Positions 36,325-40,696 are shown, numbered from the stretch's first letter. The stretch is 64,000 nt of DNA from Halobacteriovoraceae bacterium (GCA_002711995.1 PASN01000019.1:1-64000), one strand, 5' to 3'. A program made the numbers and translations. The notes: generated by a model from the sequence alone, not told the origin.

Positions 36325-37640
36325 TGAGCGAAGAACTTATTCACTACAAACTTAAGGCCATTTTTACAAACAAGTGGACTGTTGTAGTGCCTTCCTTATT
36401 AGGTATTTTCCTTCTGCTCTTAATCCTCAAAGACTTTCTTCCAATACAGCCCTTAGCTATTTGGGCAACAATAGTGACCATCTTATACGCACTAAGGTTG
36501 GGACTAGGCCTTGCCTATAGAGGTGAGTCTTCCAATGCTTATAAGTTTTTAAAGCTTCACAGAATATTTACTGTAGGCAGCGCTTTTGCTTACGGTATGA
36601 TCTCTTTCATTGGTATCGGGCAAACTCCACCACAGATTGATGGTATTATGATTGCTTTCATTGTTGGGATGGCATGCGGCGGAGGAATGTCCAATGTTGC
36701 AGACAGATTTGTCGGAGTTGCTTTTGTATTTTTGATGATAGTTCCTTTTATTGTTCGGATCTATATTCAAAGCGGCCCCTATTATGAATTGTTTATTTCA
36801 ACATTGGTGTTGATCCTAGTGGCCCTTTCCAACGTAATAAAAAGAGTTGGACGCGAGGTTCTTAAAAGTGCGGAGCTTTCATTGGAGAAGAACATGTTTC
36901 TCCAGGAAGAACAAAAAAGATTTGCTCTCCAACAGGAGCTTGAGGCCGAGAAACTTAAAAGCTTAAATGCTTCCAAGTTTGCGTCCATTGGTGAGATGGC
37001 CGCAGGAATAGGCCATGAAATAAACAATCCACTTACAATTGTTTTAGGACATCATTGGAAACTTGAAAAGGCCTTGGTTGCTCAGGGAGCTCATGAAGCG
37101 ACTGCCGAGCTGAAGAAAGCGCAAGATGCGACACTTAGAATAGGAAAGATAGTTAAAAGTATGAGGCATCTTTCCAGAGTTAGCGCTCAACAGGAATACG
37201 AAAGTTTTGAGACGATTAAGATTGTTGAGGCGGTAATGCCGCTTCTTTTCAAAAATCTCCAAGAAACAGGTGTTGAAGTTATTATGCCTACGAGTTCAGG
37301 AGAGGTTAGGGGACACCTAAGCGAGTACGCTCAAACACTTTTAGGCCTTCTTCACAATGCAATTCAAGCTCTGGAAGGATCTAGTGATAATGTTGTCACC
37401 ATCGACTGTCTTTGCGCTGAAGAATTTGTTGAGTTAAGCGTGTGCAACCCTGGACAGGAAATCCCCCATGATGTCCAAGAGCGAATGTTTCAGCCTTTCT
37501 TTACCACAAGGGACATTAATAAAGGCACTGGGCTTGGCCTGAGTCTTGGCAAAAGAAATATGGATAATAACGGCGGAGACTTACTCTATTCCCATAGAGA
37601 TGGGAACAATGTCTTCACGATGAAGATGCCTTACGCCTAA
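36324..37640 (+). CDS. Membrane sensor histidine kinase
   Basis: A 438-residue kinase with six predicted transmembrane helices in its first 180 residues, a short coiled-coil linker (about 185-215), a HisKA domain with phosphorylated His231 in AAGIGHEINNPL, and an HATPase domain. The N-box is LLHNAIQALEG and the G2 region TGLGLSLGKRNMDNNGG. The G1 motif reads CNPGQEIP, with Asn in place of the usual Asp. The sensor part is not a recognised periplasmic domain, so it may sense something within the membrane. No response regulator is adjacent. Its ATG overlaps the trmD stop by one base, tying it to the translation operon. Confidence 0.88.
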   Translation: MSEELIHYKLKAIFTNKWTVVVPSLLGIFLLLLILKDFLPIQPLAIWATIVTILYALRLGLGLAYRGESSNAYKFLKLHRIFTVGSAFAYGMISFIGIGQTPPQIDGIMIAFIVGMACGGGMSNVADRFVGVAFVFLMIVPFIVRIYIQSGPYYELFISTLVLILVALSNVIKRVGREVLKSAELSLEKNMFLQEEQKRFALQQELEAEKLKSLNASKFASIGEMAAGIGHEINNPLTIVLGHHWKLEKALVAQGAHEATAELKKAQDATLRIGKIVKSMRHLSRVSAQQEYESFETIKIVEAVMPLLFKNLQETGVEVIMPTSSGEVRGHLSEYAQTLLGLLHNAIQALEGSSDNVVTIDCLCAEEFVELSVCNPGQEIPHDVQERMFQPFFTTRDINKGTGLGLSLGKRNMDNNGGDLLYSHRDGNNVFTMKMPYA

Positions 37641-37708
37641 ATCTTGGGCGATTTTCAAATATGAAATAGATTCAAAGAAGGAGCTTGTTCGAAGAGAGCT
37701 TCCATTGC

Positions 37709-37930
37709 TGCTGCTGTTGTAAAACACTAGCAGCTTCCATGACTCCTCAATGAAGAGGGGCCTTTTGAAAAAGGTTTTTTGTTATGGAAGACATGACAAT
37801 GGCCCTGAGTTTGATCGCGATAGTCTTGCATTTGGTAGCTGCGATTCTTGACTTGATCAAGTGATGGTTTAGGGGAGGTGTGATGAGCTCTTTCCCTCCT
37901 GTCATGCATCCATATAGTAACAAATCGAAA
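37709..37930 (+). repeat. Structured repeat element, copy A
   Basis: About 222 bases that align with 39751-39971 along their whole length. Shared blocks are CTGCTG...TAAAA...CAGCTTCC, TGACTCC-CAATGAAG, GCCTTT...AAAGG, TGTTATGGAAGACAT, GATGGTTTAGG-like, and the tail CAAATCGAAA. Upstream of the small gene two hairpins form: CTCCTC-aatgaa-GAGGGG and CCTTT-tgaa-AAAGG. The second holds the Shine-Dalgarno AAGG in its 3' arm. A GC-rich hairpin follows the stop codon. Layout resembles type I toxin mRNAs. Confidence 0.75.
37784..37864 (+). CDS. Small hydrophobic peptide, TisB-like candidate toxin (copy A)
   Basis: A 26-residue reading frame, MEDMTMALSLIAIVLHLVAA followed by ILDLIK. It starts with acidic residues, has a hydrophobic helix-forming core and a Lys end, similar in size and pattern to membrane-acting type I toxins such as TisB (29 residues). 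The likely Shine-Dalgarno AAAGG lies nine bases upstream but is paired in a hairpin, a usual way to hold such genes silent. A paralogue is at 39825. No homology to a named family is claimed. Conservation of the start context and C-terminal ILDLIK between copies supports a real gene. Confidence 0.6.
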   Translation: MEDMTMALSLIAIVLHLVAAILDLIK

Positions 37931-38064
37931 ACCTACCAACAATGGCCCACCGACTTATTCCAAGAAAAGCAATCTAAGCCTTAAGGTCGTTTAAATATTG
38001 GGTTGTTGCCTGAAGTCTTCAAACTCCAGGCACCGTCCCTTTGCTTCTAAGGCCTAATATGGGT

Positions 38065-38694
38065 CTACTCTGCCTTAGTTTCTGTTTCTGTAGTGACGGT
38101 CTCTGCGTTTAATGCCACTGGCTCCTCAGGTTCCGACTCCTCAGCTTTTTGTGGTGGAACCACTGTTGCTACTGTCAGCTCTCCATCTGCCTCCATTGTA
38201 AGATCAGATGAGATATTTAAGTCTGAAACATGGATGCTGTCTCCAATACCCAGTTTGCTTACGTCTACTTTGATCTCTTCAGGGATATTCATTGGAGTAC
38301 CAGTCACTTCTAGAACGTCTTGTCTTTGCTGAACACTGCCACCTTCTTTTTGGCCGGCAGCTTCTCCAACTAAAGTTACTGGAACTTTTACAGTTGTTTC
38401 AACACCCTTTTTGAGGGCATAGAAATCAATATGCCAAATGTGCTTTCTTTGAGGGTCCCATTGAATCGTTTTGGTATTTACAAGCTTCTTTTGATTTCCG
38501 ATCTTTATCTCAAAAATCTTTCCATTGGCGTCAAATGTTCTGTTGAAATCTGTCAGGTCCACAAAAAGAGGGACGGAGTCTATTCCTTGGCCGAAGAATA
38601 CTGCTGGGATTTTTCCGTTTTTACGCTCCTTCATAAGCTCACCTCTTGAAAGGTTTGGAACTCTCTTTTTCGCTTCTAAAACTGTAGTTGCCAT
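38065..38694 (-). CDS. rplY: 50S ribosomal protein L25 / Ctc
   Basis: L25 binds 5S rRNA; the long Ctc/TL5 form has an extra C-terminal beta domain. The start MATTVLEAKKRVPNLSRGEL fits, with GGAG six bases before the ATG at 38694; an in-frame ATG at 38742 lacks such a site. The 209-residue chain has the L25 domain (about 1-93, ending DFYAL), then the C domain with KVPVTLVGEAAGQKEGG and IHVSDL. A Glu/Thr-rich tail follows. It lies between the two structured elements, within the block that interrupts the trmD-rplS neighbourhood. Confidence 0.92.
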   Translation of the reverse strand: MATTVLEAKKRVPNLSRGELMKERKNGKIPAVFFGQGIDSVPLFVDLTDFNRTFDANGKIFEIKIGNQKKLVNTKTIQWDPQRKHIWHIDFYALKKGVETTVKVPVTLVGEAAGQKEGGSVQQRQDVLEVTGTPMNIPEEIKVDVSKLGIGDSIHVSDLNISSDLTMEADGELTVATVVPPQKAEESEPEEPVALNAETVTTETETKAE

Positions 38695-39145
38695 TAGTAA
38701 CTCCTTGTAGTTGATATGTTTAAACCTAATTTTGTTGATCAATTCATCGAATTAACAATAACTTAAGGTCTTTCTGTGAGGTTAACATGGGGAAGGGGTT
38801 GGTTTCCTTCCTAGCGTGACTTAGTTAGGTTTTTCCTTACACTGAAACTGTGTTGACTTTGATTAGCTAACCCATACTCAACTCTTTTTGGGTGTTAATA
38901 TTGGATAAGAATACATTGAAGGAAATGGTGGGCGAATACCTACCTCTTTATTGTAGCCAATTTCCCAGAAATCGTATTATTTTTCGACACTTTTAAAAAG
39001 TACGTGGAAAGATTTCAATAGACCTAGTACATGATTTGGCCTTGCAATATGATTTATGGAATTAAACATAAACCAAGTTCCAGGCCCAGGTGACGAATGA
39101 GACCAAACTTTTGGGATAATACGAACTTTTGAGACGAGGTATACG
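38695..39145. other. Intergenic region between rplY and the pilin-like gene
   Basis: This 451-base gap between divergent genes has no convincing reading frame. It must hold the promoters for rplY (minus) and the pilin-like gene (plus), but I cannot place them with confidence. GGAAGGGG and TTTCCTTCC around 38790-38815 form a short inverted repeat. Confidence 0.45.
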
Positions 39146-39514
39146 ATGAGATCAGTTTTGAATAATCAACAAGGTGCAGCCTTTATACTTTTTACTGTTT
39201 TGCTTTATATCGTTACAGCAGTAGGGATTACTGGCTATCATTGGTCAGAAGACTTAGATGCAAAAGAAAGACTGATAGAACACGTAACCTTCTCTTTTGG
39301 TGATGAAAATGTTGTTGAAACCGATGATAGGATATTTATCGACACCTCTGATTTAGAATTGGACTATGACACATGTAAATCAGAGCTAAGAGCCGCAAAA
39401 ATGAGAATTGATGAATCTGATTTCTCAACGGATACTCTTCGTGGTGAAAGTGTTGGCTCAATATTAGATTCGATAAGATGTGACTATGATGGAAATATAG
39501 TTGTATTAAAGTGA
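39146..39514 (+). CDS. Small membrane protein with pilin-like N-terminus
   Basis: The 122-residue protein begins with a short basic leader, then NNQQGAAFILFTVLLYIVTA, a Gly followed by a long hydrophobic helix (about 10-33). This resembles the N-terminus of TadE-type pseudopilins and prepilins, but the usual Glu at position +5 is missing. The rest is acidic with two Cys (DTCKSE and IRCDYD). GAGG lies six bases before the ATG. A single-pass membrane protein is a safe statement; a pilin role is only a possibility. Confidence 0.6.
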   Translation: MRSVLNNQQGAAFILFTVLLYIVTAVGITGYHWSEDLDAKERLIEHVTFSFGDENVVETDDRIFIDTSDLELDYDTCKSELRAAKMRIDESDFSTDTLRGESVGSILDSIRCDYDGNIVVLK

Positions 39515-39750
39515 TATTATAAAAGAGAGGGCTATTCTCGTCGGAGTATCATTTTAAGTTCTTTTAAAAAAATGCTCCGCCACCCTTCTAGGCCCTGAGA
39601 TCTCTTATCGCAAGGCGAGAAGAAAGAGGATCGTCTTTACAGACTAGCTCGGTTTCGCTCAAGCTGCCGTTGCCCAACTGGTAGTGAGGCTTTGGAATTT
39701 CATTTACGAAAAACTTCACTCTATCTGTTTGAATTCTACTGAACATTGAA
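39515..39750. other. Intergenic region, possible gene remnant
   Basis: On the minus strand about 39588-39760 reads through a protein-like stretch (for example VKFFVNEIPKPHYQLGNG). It has no signal, no clear binding site and runs into element B, so it may be a remnant or chance. Nothing else is seen here. The gap to the next gene also holds element B. Confidence 0.3.
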
Positions 39751-39971
39751 CTGCACTGCTGTAAAAAGCGCGCAGCTTCCGTGACTCCCCAATGAAGGGG
39801 AGCCTTTATCAAAAGGCATTTGTTATGGAAGACATAATCAGGGTTTTGACTTTGATTAAACTAGTTTTGGATATTATTAATTCAATTCTAGACTTAATCA
39901 AACGATGATTTAGGTGGGGTGTTCGCGCACTCCACCACCTGATCATGTTCTATGATATTAGCAAATCGAAA
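39751..39971 (+). repeat. Structured repeat element, copy B
   Basis: The second copy of the element at 37709-37930, about 221 bases long. The hairpins are better here: CTCCCC-aatgaa-GGGGAG and GCCTTT-atca-AAAGGC. Against copy A, one base pair changes from T-A to C-G and another from T-G to T-A, so pairing is kept while sequence changes. After the stop codon GGTGGGGTG and CACTCCACC pair over nine positions (one G-T). Confidence 0.75.
39825..39908 (+). CDS. Small hydrophobic peptide, TisB-like candidate toxin (copy B)
   Basis: A 27-residue reading frame, MEDIIRVLTLIKLVLDIINS followed by ILDLIKR. It shares MED at the start and ILDLIK at the end with copy A, with a diverged hydrophobic middle. 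Charged residues recur every three to four positions (R6, K12, D16, D23, K26), giving an amphipathic helix like TisB. The Shine-Dalgarno AAAGG is eight bases upstream and sequestered in a hairpin. Type I toxin function is inference. Confidence 0.6.
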   Translation: MEDIIRVLTLIKLVLDIINSILDLIKR

Positions 39972-40129
39972 CGCCCTCTACAACCAGCATGATTAATATT
40001 CTTTTCAGAGACCCTCATAATTGCTGACCATCCTCTATAAATTAGGGCCTTGTAGTTAATGGTTAAGAATTTTTCAAAGTGGGCCGAAACTGATGGATTC
40101 TTATCCAATTCTCTGTTAAAAACAACTCT

Positions 40130-40696
40130 ATGAAAAATTGCTATTTGGCCTTGGTCCACCATCCTATTGTTAATAAAAGAGGGGATATTGTAACGACTAG
40201 TGTTACAAATCTTGATATTCACGACATTGCCCGAAGTGCGAGAACTTTTGGGTTTGATGGGTACTTTATTGTCACTCCTGTGGAAAAGCAGCATGCTCTT
40301 GTTCAGAACATTCTTGATCACTGGAATACTGACTACGGAAATGAGTACAATCCAGATAGAAAGGATGCTCTTTCATTCATTAACATGGCGAATTCACTAG
40401 AGGACGCCTATAAAGAAATAGAGAAGAAACACGGGCAGGAGCCGATAAAGGTTGCCACTGCCGCCGGGTTTAAAGATTATGACGGAACATGCGCCGATTT
40501 ACGCAACAAGTTAGAAGTTGACAATAGGCCTATGATTCTGATATTTGGTACAGGTTGGGGATTACATGCCTCTGTCACGGAAAATGGGGATTATCGCTTG
40601 GAGCCCATTTTCGGTGCGGCCAAAGATGGTTATAACCATCTTTCGGTTAGGTCGGCCGTCGCAATTTATTGTGACCGCCTACGCGGAAGCCTCTGA
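40130..40696 (+). CDS. RNA methyltransferase domain protein (Methyltrn_RNA_4 type)
   Basis: The 188-residue protein matches a SPOUT-like family of putative RNA methyltransferases often found near trmD and rplS. Signs are NCYLALVHHPIVNKRGDIVTTSVTNLDIHDIARSA (in two parts), the central FGFDGYFIVTP and the C-terminal MILIFGTGWGLH, LEPIFGAAKDGYNHLSVRSAVAIYCDRL, which form the cofactor knot. The substrate RNA is unknown. The ATG lacks a clear Shine-Dalgarno. rplS follows 86 bases later. Confidence 0.82.
   Translation: MKNCYLALVHHPIVNKRGDIVTTSVTNLDIHDIARSARTFGFDGYFIVTPVEKQHALVQNILDHWNTDYGNEYNPDRKDALSFINMANSLEDAYKEIEKKHGQEPIKVATAAGFKDYDGTCADLRNKLEVDNRPMILIFGTGWGLHASVTENGDYRLEPIFGAAKDGYNHLSVRSAVAIYCDRLRGSL

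Follow-up and report, generated by a model that had tools for sequence, protein, structure and literature searches.

Relation to described type I toxin-antitoxin systems

Type I toxin-antitoxin systems have been reported from few phyla, namely Proteobacteria, Firmicutes, Tenericutes and, lately, Cyanobacteria (PMC12390103). In aapA/IsoA of Helicobacter pylori, a long-distance interaction between the 5' and 3' ends leaves the full-length peptide mRNA translationally inert (PMC6733600). The mRNA of hok/Sok, a system found on plasmid R1 and on chromosomes, is also inert, its 3' end being folded to the 5' end, and the coupled covariations of this fold are credited, in the account given there, to Gultyaev et al. 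1997 (PMC6733600). In bsrG/SR4 of Bacillus subtilis, antitoxin RNA and toxin mRNA overlap at the 3' end of the latter (PMC8309996). TisB of E. coli is a 29-residue hydrophobic peptide of the inner membrane that carries its charges on a narrow polar strip, and its message has an inhibitory structure in the 5' UTR; the antitoxin IstR-1 is trans-encoded, and tisB is controlled by LexA (PMC8309996).

The DNA analysed here is a stretch of 64,000 nucleotides from a Halobacteriovoraceae bacterium (GCA_002711995.1 PASN01000019.1:1-64000; hereafter the window), in which the first-pass annotation had described two loci, A and B, as a candidate type I toxin-antitoxin family. Comparison of sequences supports the family, the reading frame, the leader fold, the 3' fold-back and the antisense promoter, and the loci probably represent a type I toxin-antitoxin-like module, composed of an mRNA under two locks and an antisense RNA that overlaps its 3' end. 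The earlier reading gains from selection on the frame, from a predicted fold that seals translation and from a conserved antisense promoter, except that its TisB part does not apply to the family as a whole. Promoter and fold-back are both additions to the first-pass annotation.

The likeness to aapA/IsoA lies in a multicopy chromosomal peptide of ~30 residues, in hairpins that mask the Shine-Dalgarno sequence and in a cis antisense RNA, which is predicted in the present case (PMC6733600). In aapA/IsoA, however, the 3' end masks the Shine-Dalgarno sequence, whereas here the leader would mask both the Shine-Dalgarno sequence and the AUG, and codons 4-6 would be the pairing partner of the 3' arm; moreover, IsoA3 is an 80-nt RNA opposite the ORF, whereas the antisense promoter of the present elements is situated past the point where the message ends. 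The family libraries searched showed no sequence relation to aapA/IsoA. With hok/Sok the loci share an mRNA 3' end that folds back, and the fold-back of both described systems recurs here in kind, directed at codons 4-6 and not at the Shine-Dalgarno sequence. A mok-like coupled reading frame was not noticed in the A/B family. We take the peptide to be half the size of that of hok/Sok and unrelated to it, and the antisense promoter to be at the other end.

Judging by the position of its promoter, the predicted antisense RNA would overlap the 3' end of the message as in bsrG/SR4; in txpA/RatA of Bacillus subtilis, too, the antitoxin RNA overlaps the toxin-mRNA 3' end. BsrG, however, has 38 residues and is prophage-borne, whereas the peptides described here have 23-30 residues, are encoded at intergenic chromosomal sites and would be subject to a fold-back onto codons. 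The likeness to tisB/IstR-1 consists of a translation-inhibiting 5' structure and of the polar strip of subfamily B (K12, D16, N19, D23 and K26), while the differences are a cis antisense promoter, the absence of any SOS sign and the lack of an amphipathic pattern in most peptides. The resemblance to TisB that had been pointed out stands for one subfamily only, and LexA control was not found; it is a likeness in pattern and not evidence of homology.

Among known systems, none was found to have this leader, this peptide or a fold-back directed at codons 4-6. A description of a type I system in Bdellovibrio-like bacteria was not found in the literature either, although most subscription journals lay outside the search and absence is unproven. 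If the reading is true, the family would put type I systems in Bacteriovoracaceae. Covariation among its ~90 natural variants resolves the lock nearly to the single base, and the family lets one ask how the lock on a toxin mRNA can include codons in addition to the ribosome site, how ten cognate pairs in one genome stay separate, and whether such peptides matter to the bacterial life cycle.

Location and extent of elements A and B

The paralogy of A (37709-37930) and B (39751-39971), proposed from an alignment of about 222 bases, was confirmed by pairwise alignment in the window along this length, by BLAST (72% identity over 217 nt, E = 8.8e-23) and by the ten copies in the genome. The leader core of 66 nt is 79% identical between the two. 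Although these coordinates hold, the complete unit is longer and reaches from an upstream box to the antisense -35 box: unit A spans 37653 (TTTCA..GAAA box) to 37942 (antisense -35), and unit B spans 39698 (TTTCA..GAAA box) to 39983 (antisense -35). Each copy of the family is a standalone intergenic unit of ~280-330 bp.

On the plus strand, MFE folds place a 5' hairpin GCTGCTG...CAGC at 37707-37734 in A, whose sequence is conserved within the genus only, and a 5' hairpin CTGC...GCAG at 39751-39775 in B. The GC-rich hairpin that had been proposed downstream of the stop codon was recovered by folding at both loci, also on the plus strand: in A it is of the TTTAGG-stem-CNCCT type (37871-37897), a layout conserved in the family, and in B it occupies 39913-39936 (fold z -5.22 for 39900-39950).

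In one genus (L084, L086, L076 and L088), a perfect hairpin GATGGCCCATCTAGGATGGGCCATC stands upstream of the leader and replaces the 5' CTGC hairpin; CTTCTGTGA in these copies is a possible second anti-start arm, and a candidate for metastable pairing as in hok and aapA. A short palindrome-like motif, AAAAGGTGCCAGGT(ACC), recurs beside many elements of one genus, downstream of L101, L093, L068, L069, L102, L075, L079, L081, L189, L191 and L194 and upstream of L086, and may be a repeat of REP-like or terminator type. In the congener G001, a 188-aa gene preceding rplS lies within ~70 bp after the histidine-kinase gene, and the whole block comprising A, the ribosomal protein L25 gene, a 122-aa ORF and B (window 37641-40129) is absent; A and B therefore flank a segment that was gained or lost between congeners.

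Family size and distribution

Ten copies occur on seven contigs of the window's own genome (BLAST E 1e-122 to 3e-18), and their peptides fall into two subfamilies, MEDMT... (26 residues) and MEDII... (27 residues). The site C5:226286 proved not to be an eleventh copy. The covariance-model search of Bacteriovoracales genomes that had been suggested for the loci yielded homologous elements: of the order's 129 genomes, the first leader model hit 30 and the refined one 34, the latter in 11 of the 48 genera, and the copies total ~90. A leader-free peptide profile detected 31 genomes, at largely identical places to the RNA-leader model. The ten copies, the E values reaching 1e-122, the independent recovery by RNA model and peptide profile and the presence in more than 30 genomes place the element far above chance. 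Homologues in related genomes and conserved frames were thus both found, and these are the points accessible to sequence on which the first-pass annotation had staked its reading.

In a phylum-wide scan of 369 genomes, matches were confined to the window's own family, the named carriers being Bacteriovoracaceae and Halobacteriovorax. A pattern scan of 84,980 species returned 24 stretches, 22 of which belong to records titled Bacteriovoracaceae, Halobacteriovorax, Oligoflexia or 'Proteobacteria bacterium'; the other two, from Schekmanbacteria and Acidobacteria, are about the estimated chance number. Rfam 15 (4227 models) gave no match in window 37500-40200 at E up to 5, and no family of Pfam or NCBIfam covers the peptides (two TraX matches with E of 0.2-0.3 were disregarded). 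More divergent units at L196, L197 and L199 (MEEIDLKVFKLLILLLNLAILLYEMRVA, MDEATEVLVLVFEVLQLTVWLIKKLLKLG) suggest that the family extends past the reach of the models.

Some copies form tandem arrays, as in G138, where three units 361 nt apart and a fourth encode identical peptides, and in G119, which has two pairs; in other copies (L069, L106, L080, L049 and L085) the frame is decayed. Gene neighbours occur in all orientations (24 convergent, 16 + 15 co-directional and 13 divergent). A same-strand upstream gene usually ends 120-200 nt before the ATG of the element, and a convergent downstream gene usually ends 165-300 nt after it.

The dispersed copies, with 71-94% identity and flanks devoid of identity, and the orthologous site in G001 that lacks A and B could be seen as marks of a mobile repeat (MITE or REP-like), with the hairpins serving transposition and the frame and promoters as passengers. 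This explanation appears very unlikely, since terminal inverted repeats or target duplications were not noticed in an informal look at the alignments of own-genome copies, similarity stops at promoter-like boxes, and the constraints on coding, fold-back and antisense promoter hold across at least nine genera. In addition, viral contigs gave no match, and phage and plasmid collections gave no tblastn match.

Coding evidence for the peptides

On the plus strand, element A encodes MEDMTMALSLIAIVLHLVAAILDLIK followed by a stop codon (37784-37864), in a frame that is conserved in the family with pN/pS of 0.31-0.45, and element B encodes MEDIIRVLTLIKLVLDIINSILDLIKR followed by a stop codon (39825-39908), also in a conserved frame. 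Both loci and their coordinates agree with the earlier description, as does the ending ILDLIK for A; B ends in ILDLIKR, with one residue more. The family peptides are hydrophobic, 23-30 residues long and of the form ME[D/E]xxRVLxLxxLxLQL..., with R6 and L8 nearly fixed, Q16 common and the middle hydrophobic. Pairwise differences among own-genome copies are mostly at the third codon position (371 versus 230 and 176), and pN/pS from codon 8 to the end is 0.42, 0.45 and 0.31 in the 24-, 26- and 27-residue classes, respectively. Such values indicate that the peptide frame is under purifying selection. The Shine-Dalgarno sequence and the start codon are kept in nearly all copies.

The peptides had been called hydrophobic and amphipathic. 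The former holds family-wide. A and B are indeed amphipathic, with ranks of 0.01-0.016 among shuffles, but the 54 family peptides taken as a set are not (mean z -0.14). Amphipathicity was therefore rejected as a family trait, and only certain members have a narrow polar strip like that of TisB.

The most conserved feature of the family is the leader fold, which would also suit a structured non-coding RNA or a cis-regulatory leader of the next gene with an incidental frame. Such an origin is highly improbable, because the peptide profile by itself recovers the family, the pN/pS values are low as given above, nearly all copies retain start codon and Shine-Dalgarno sequence, the neighbours lie in every orientation and the unit closes with its own hairpin. 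Regulation of the downstream gene is likewise unsupported, given these orientations.

Leader fold

The leader is predicted to form a three-way junction on the plus strand, at 37733-37795 in A (leader model 81.4 bits) and at 39775-39836 in B (84.8 bits; fold z -4.07 for 39762-39830), with support for both loci from pair counts across the family. In the predicted fold, the Shine-Dalgarno sequence (AAGG in A), the AUG and codons 2-3 are sequestered. It had been recognised earlier that the Shine-Dalgarno AAAGG is part of a hairpin's 3' arm and precedes the ATG by 8-9 nt, and folding of A and B reproduced this; that view of the start site needs correction in that the AUG itself is also inside the leader stem. 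The outer stem pairs CTTCCRTRAC with GTTATGGAAG, and the AUG and codons 2-3 consequently lie inside it.

Among 67 distinct sequences, 92.8% of the cells are paired, double-change cells number 139 against 48.1 in shuffled data, and the covariation score is 0.320 against 0.155 ± 0.007 in shuffles; none of the 500 shuffles reached any of five measures. Pairing was destroyed in controls with slid partners (0.05-0.10). In G073 the outer stem is rebuilt in different letters, GTCCTC with GAGGAC.

Fold-back of the 3' arm onto codons 4-6

On the 3' side of the terminal hairpin are CCTNATCAT-like letters complementary to codons 4-6. In A, codons 4-6 (37793-37801, plus strand) pair with the arm CCTGTCATG (37898-37906, plus strand) with one bulged A, and this pairing is present in MFE folds. 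In B, codons 4-6 (39834-39842, plus strand) form 8/9 pairs with 39938-39946 at a mean pair probability of 0.83, the arm being CCTGATCATG (39938-39947, plus strand). Both arms are supported by covariation with codons 4-6 across the family. For the count, 3' arms were picked without using pairing, avoiding circularity: 336 of 423 cells are paired, versus 302 ± 5 when arms were swapped among elements (maximum 320 in 1000 swaps). The third base of codon 5 takes part in all four Watson-Crick pairs (C-G 14, T-A 10, G-C 7 and A-T 4), and a codon change is tracked by the arm, the variant ATTTACAGG having the arm CCTGTGAAT (L099). Six G073 copies outside the discovery set combine TTCATAAGG with CCTTATGAA, giving 9/9 pairs in new letters, although these copies are paralogs and hence count as about one event.

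In energy calculations, the Shine-Dalgarno sequence and the AUG are closed in the full-length mRNA. In two relatives, these sites opened only once both arms had been removed, the unpaired probability then being 0.68-0.77 for the Shine-Dalgarno sequence and 0.78-0.84 for the AUG, and the opening of these sites in A and B was partial. For A, the same calculations indicate that the fold-back requires the bulge and that the leader alone already closes the start. As modelled, the mRNA structure restrains translation.

Antisense promoter and proposed mechanism

De novo discovery in the minus-strand sequence beyond the arm gave the motif TGcTAaaAT, whose likelihood gain of 68 compares with 20-28 in twelve shuffles. 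In most cases the motif is 12-14 nt away from the arm, and a TTG precedes it at a spacing of 17 nt. The promoter consensus score is 9.36 for the minus strand, compared with 7.82 for the plus strand and 8.35 ± 0.12 for dinucleotide shuffles. We thus predict a conserved sigma-70 promoter (TTG-N17-TATAAT-like, extended TGn) on the opposite strand, directed into the unit. In A, the extended -10 TGTTACTAT is at 37914-37922 and the -35 TTGTTG at 37937-37942; in B, the extended -10 TGCTAATAT is at 39955-39963 and the -35 TTGTAG at 39978-39983. All four are on the minus strand with 17-nt spacers, the -10 boxes assigned by the family motif and the -35 boxes by motif search, and all were checked on the sequence. 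From the promoter position, we predict that an antisense RNA starts at ~37907 in A (provisional extent 37735-37907, minus strand) and at ~39948 in B (provisional extent 39776-39948, minus strand) and overlaps the message at its 3' end. A simple promoter scanner applied to A or B individually did not call the antisense promoters, and scanning of single elements found no antisense RNA terminator; as single-element scans are uninformative, the case for the antisense promoter is comparative.

In 28/68 cases the element has a minus-strand gene upstream, and the promoter might then serve this neighbour and have nothing to do with an antitoxin. We regard this as scarcely credible, because the promoter is retained whatever the orientation of the neighbour, and any transcript would first have to cross the element as antisense.

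For the favoured reading, a type I toxin-antitoxin-like module, we infer transcription, antisense action, processing and toxicity as follows. The plus strand would give a short mRNA for a membrane peptide of 23-30 residues. In the nascent mRNA, the three-way-junction leader would act as a first lock that hides the Shine-Dalgarno sequence, the AUG and codons 2-3, and the 3' tail folded back over codons 4-6 would be the second. The downstream sigma-70 promoter on the opposite strand would produce an antisense RNA with its start at the fold-back arm. Its complementarity would cover this arm, the 3' hairpin and some or all of the reading frame; by binding the mRNA, it would block or destroy the message. 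Synthesis of the peptide would require both an excess of mRNA over antisense RNA and an opening of the locks, which processing of the ends, for instance, could bring about; the peptide would then act on the cell's own membrane.

Alternatively, the product could be a small regulatory and non-toxic membrane peptide, for example one tuning a membrane protein, under the control of the antisense RNA; conserved polar residues of a helix, R6 and the frequent Q16, could provide specific contacts. This seems unlikely, as 1-10 copies, tandem arrays, non-syntenic scatter and decayed copies fit selfish or toxin-like loci better, and the combination of two locks with an antisense RNA implies a cost to unwanted expression.

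Upstream box and SOS control

On the plus strand upstream of the leader, A has the box TTTCAAATATGAAA with dyad symmetry (37653-37666) and B has the box TTTCATTTACGAAA (39698-39711), both candidate sites of a regulator or an unusual sigma factor for the sense unit. An unsupervised search of 56 non-redundant elements found the corresponding motif TTTCAnnnnnGAAA at -79/-80 or ~-91 from the leader, two preferred distances that are ~11 nt, or one helical turn, apart; a sigma-70 signal was sought upstream of the sense unit on the plus strand of these elements and was not found. Genome-wide, the TTTCANNNNTGAAA dyad is mildly enriched, with 22 sites versus 14 for the reversed control. A more specific and doubtful proposal, which we hold to be quite improbable, is that the module is a growth-arrest switch peculiar to Bacteriovoracaceae and tied to the predatory or starvation cycle, with a constitutive sigma-70 antisense RNA that keeps the peptide low, a dedicated factor reading TTTCA..TGAAA on the sense promoter, and up to ten cognate pairs per genome whose distinct arms tune the response.

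For the SOS question, lexA and recA were located in the own genome and the lexA/dinB intergenic region was compared with the elements. SOS control was not supported, since the TTTCA..TGAAA box is missing upstream of lexA and the TACGGA repeats of lexA/dinB are not in the elements. These TACGGA boxes are repeated upstream of lexA, which is divergent from dinB (TACGGATTTATTACGGATAAA and TACGGAAATGATACGG; L132 ~1400-1460, G000:C6), and are a candidate LexA operator in the window's genus.
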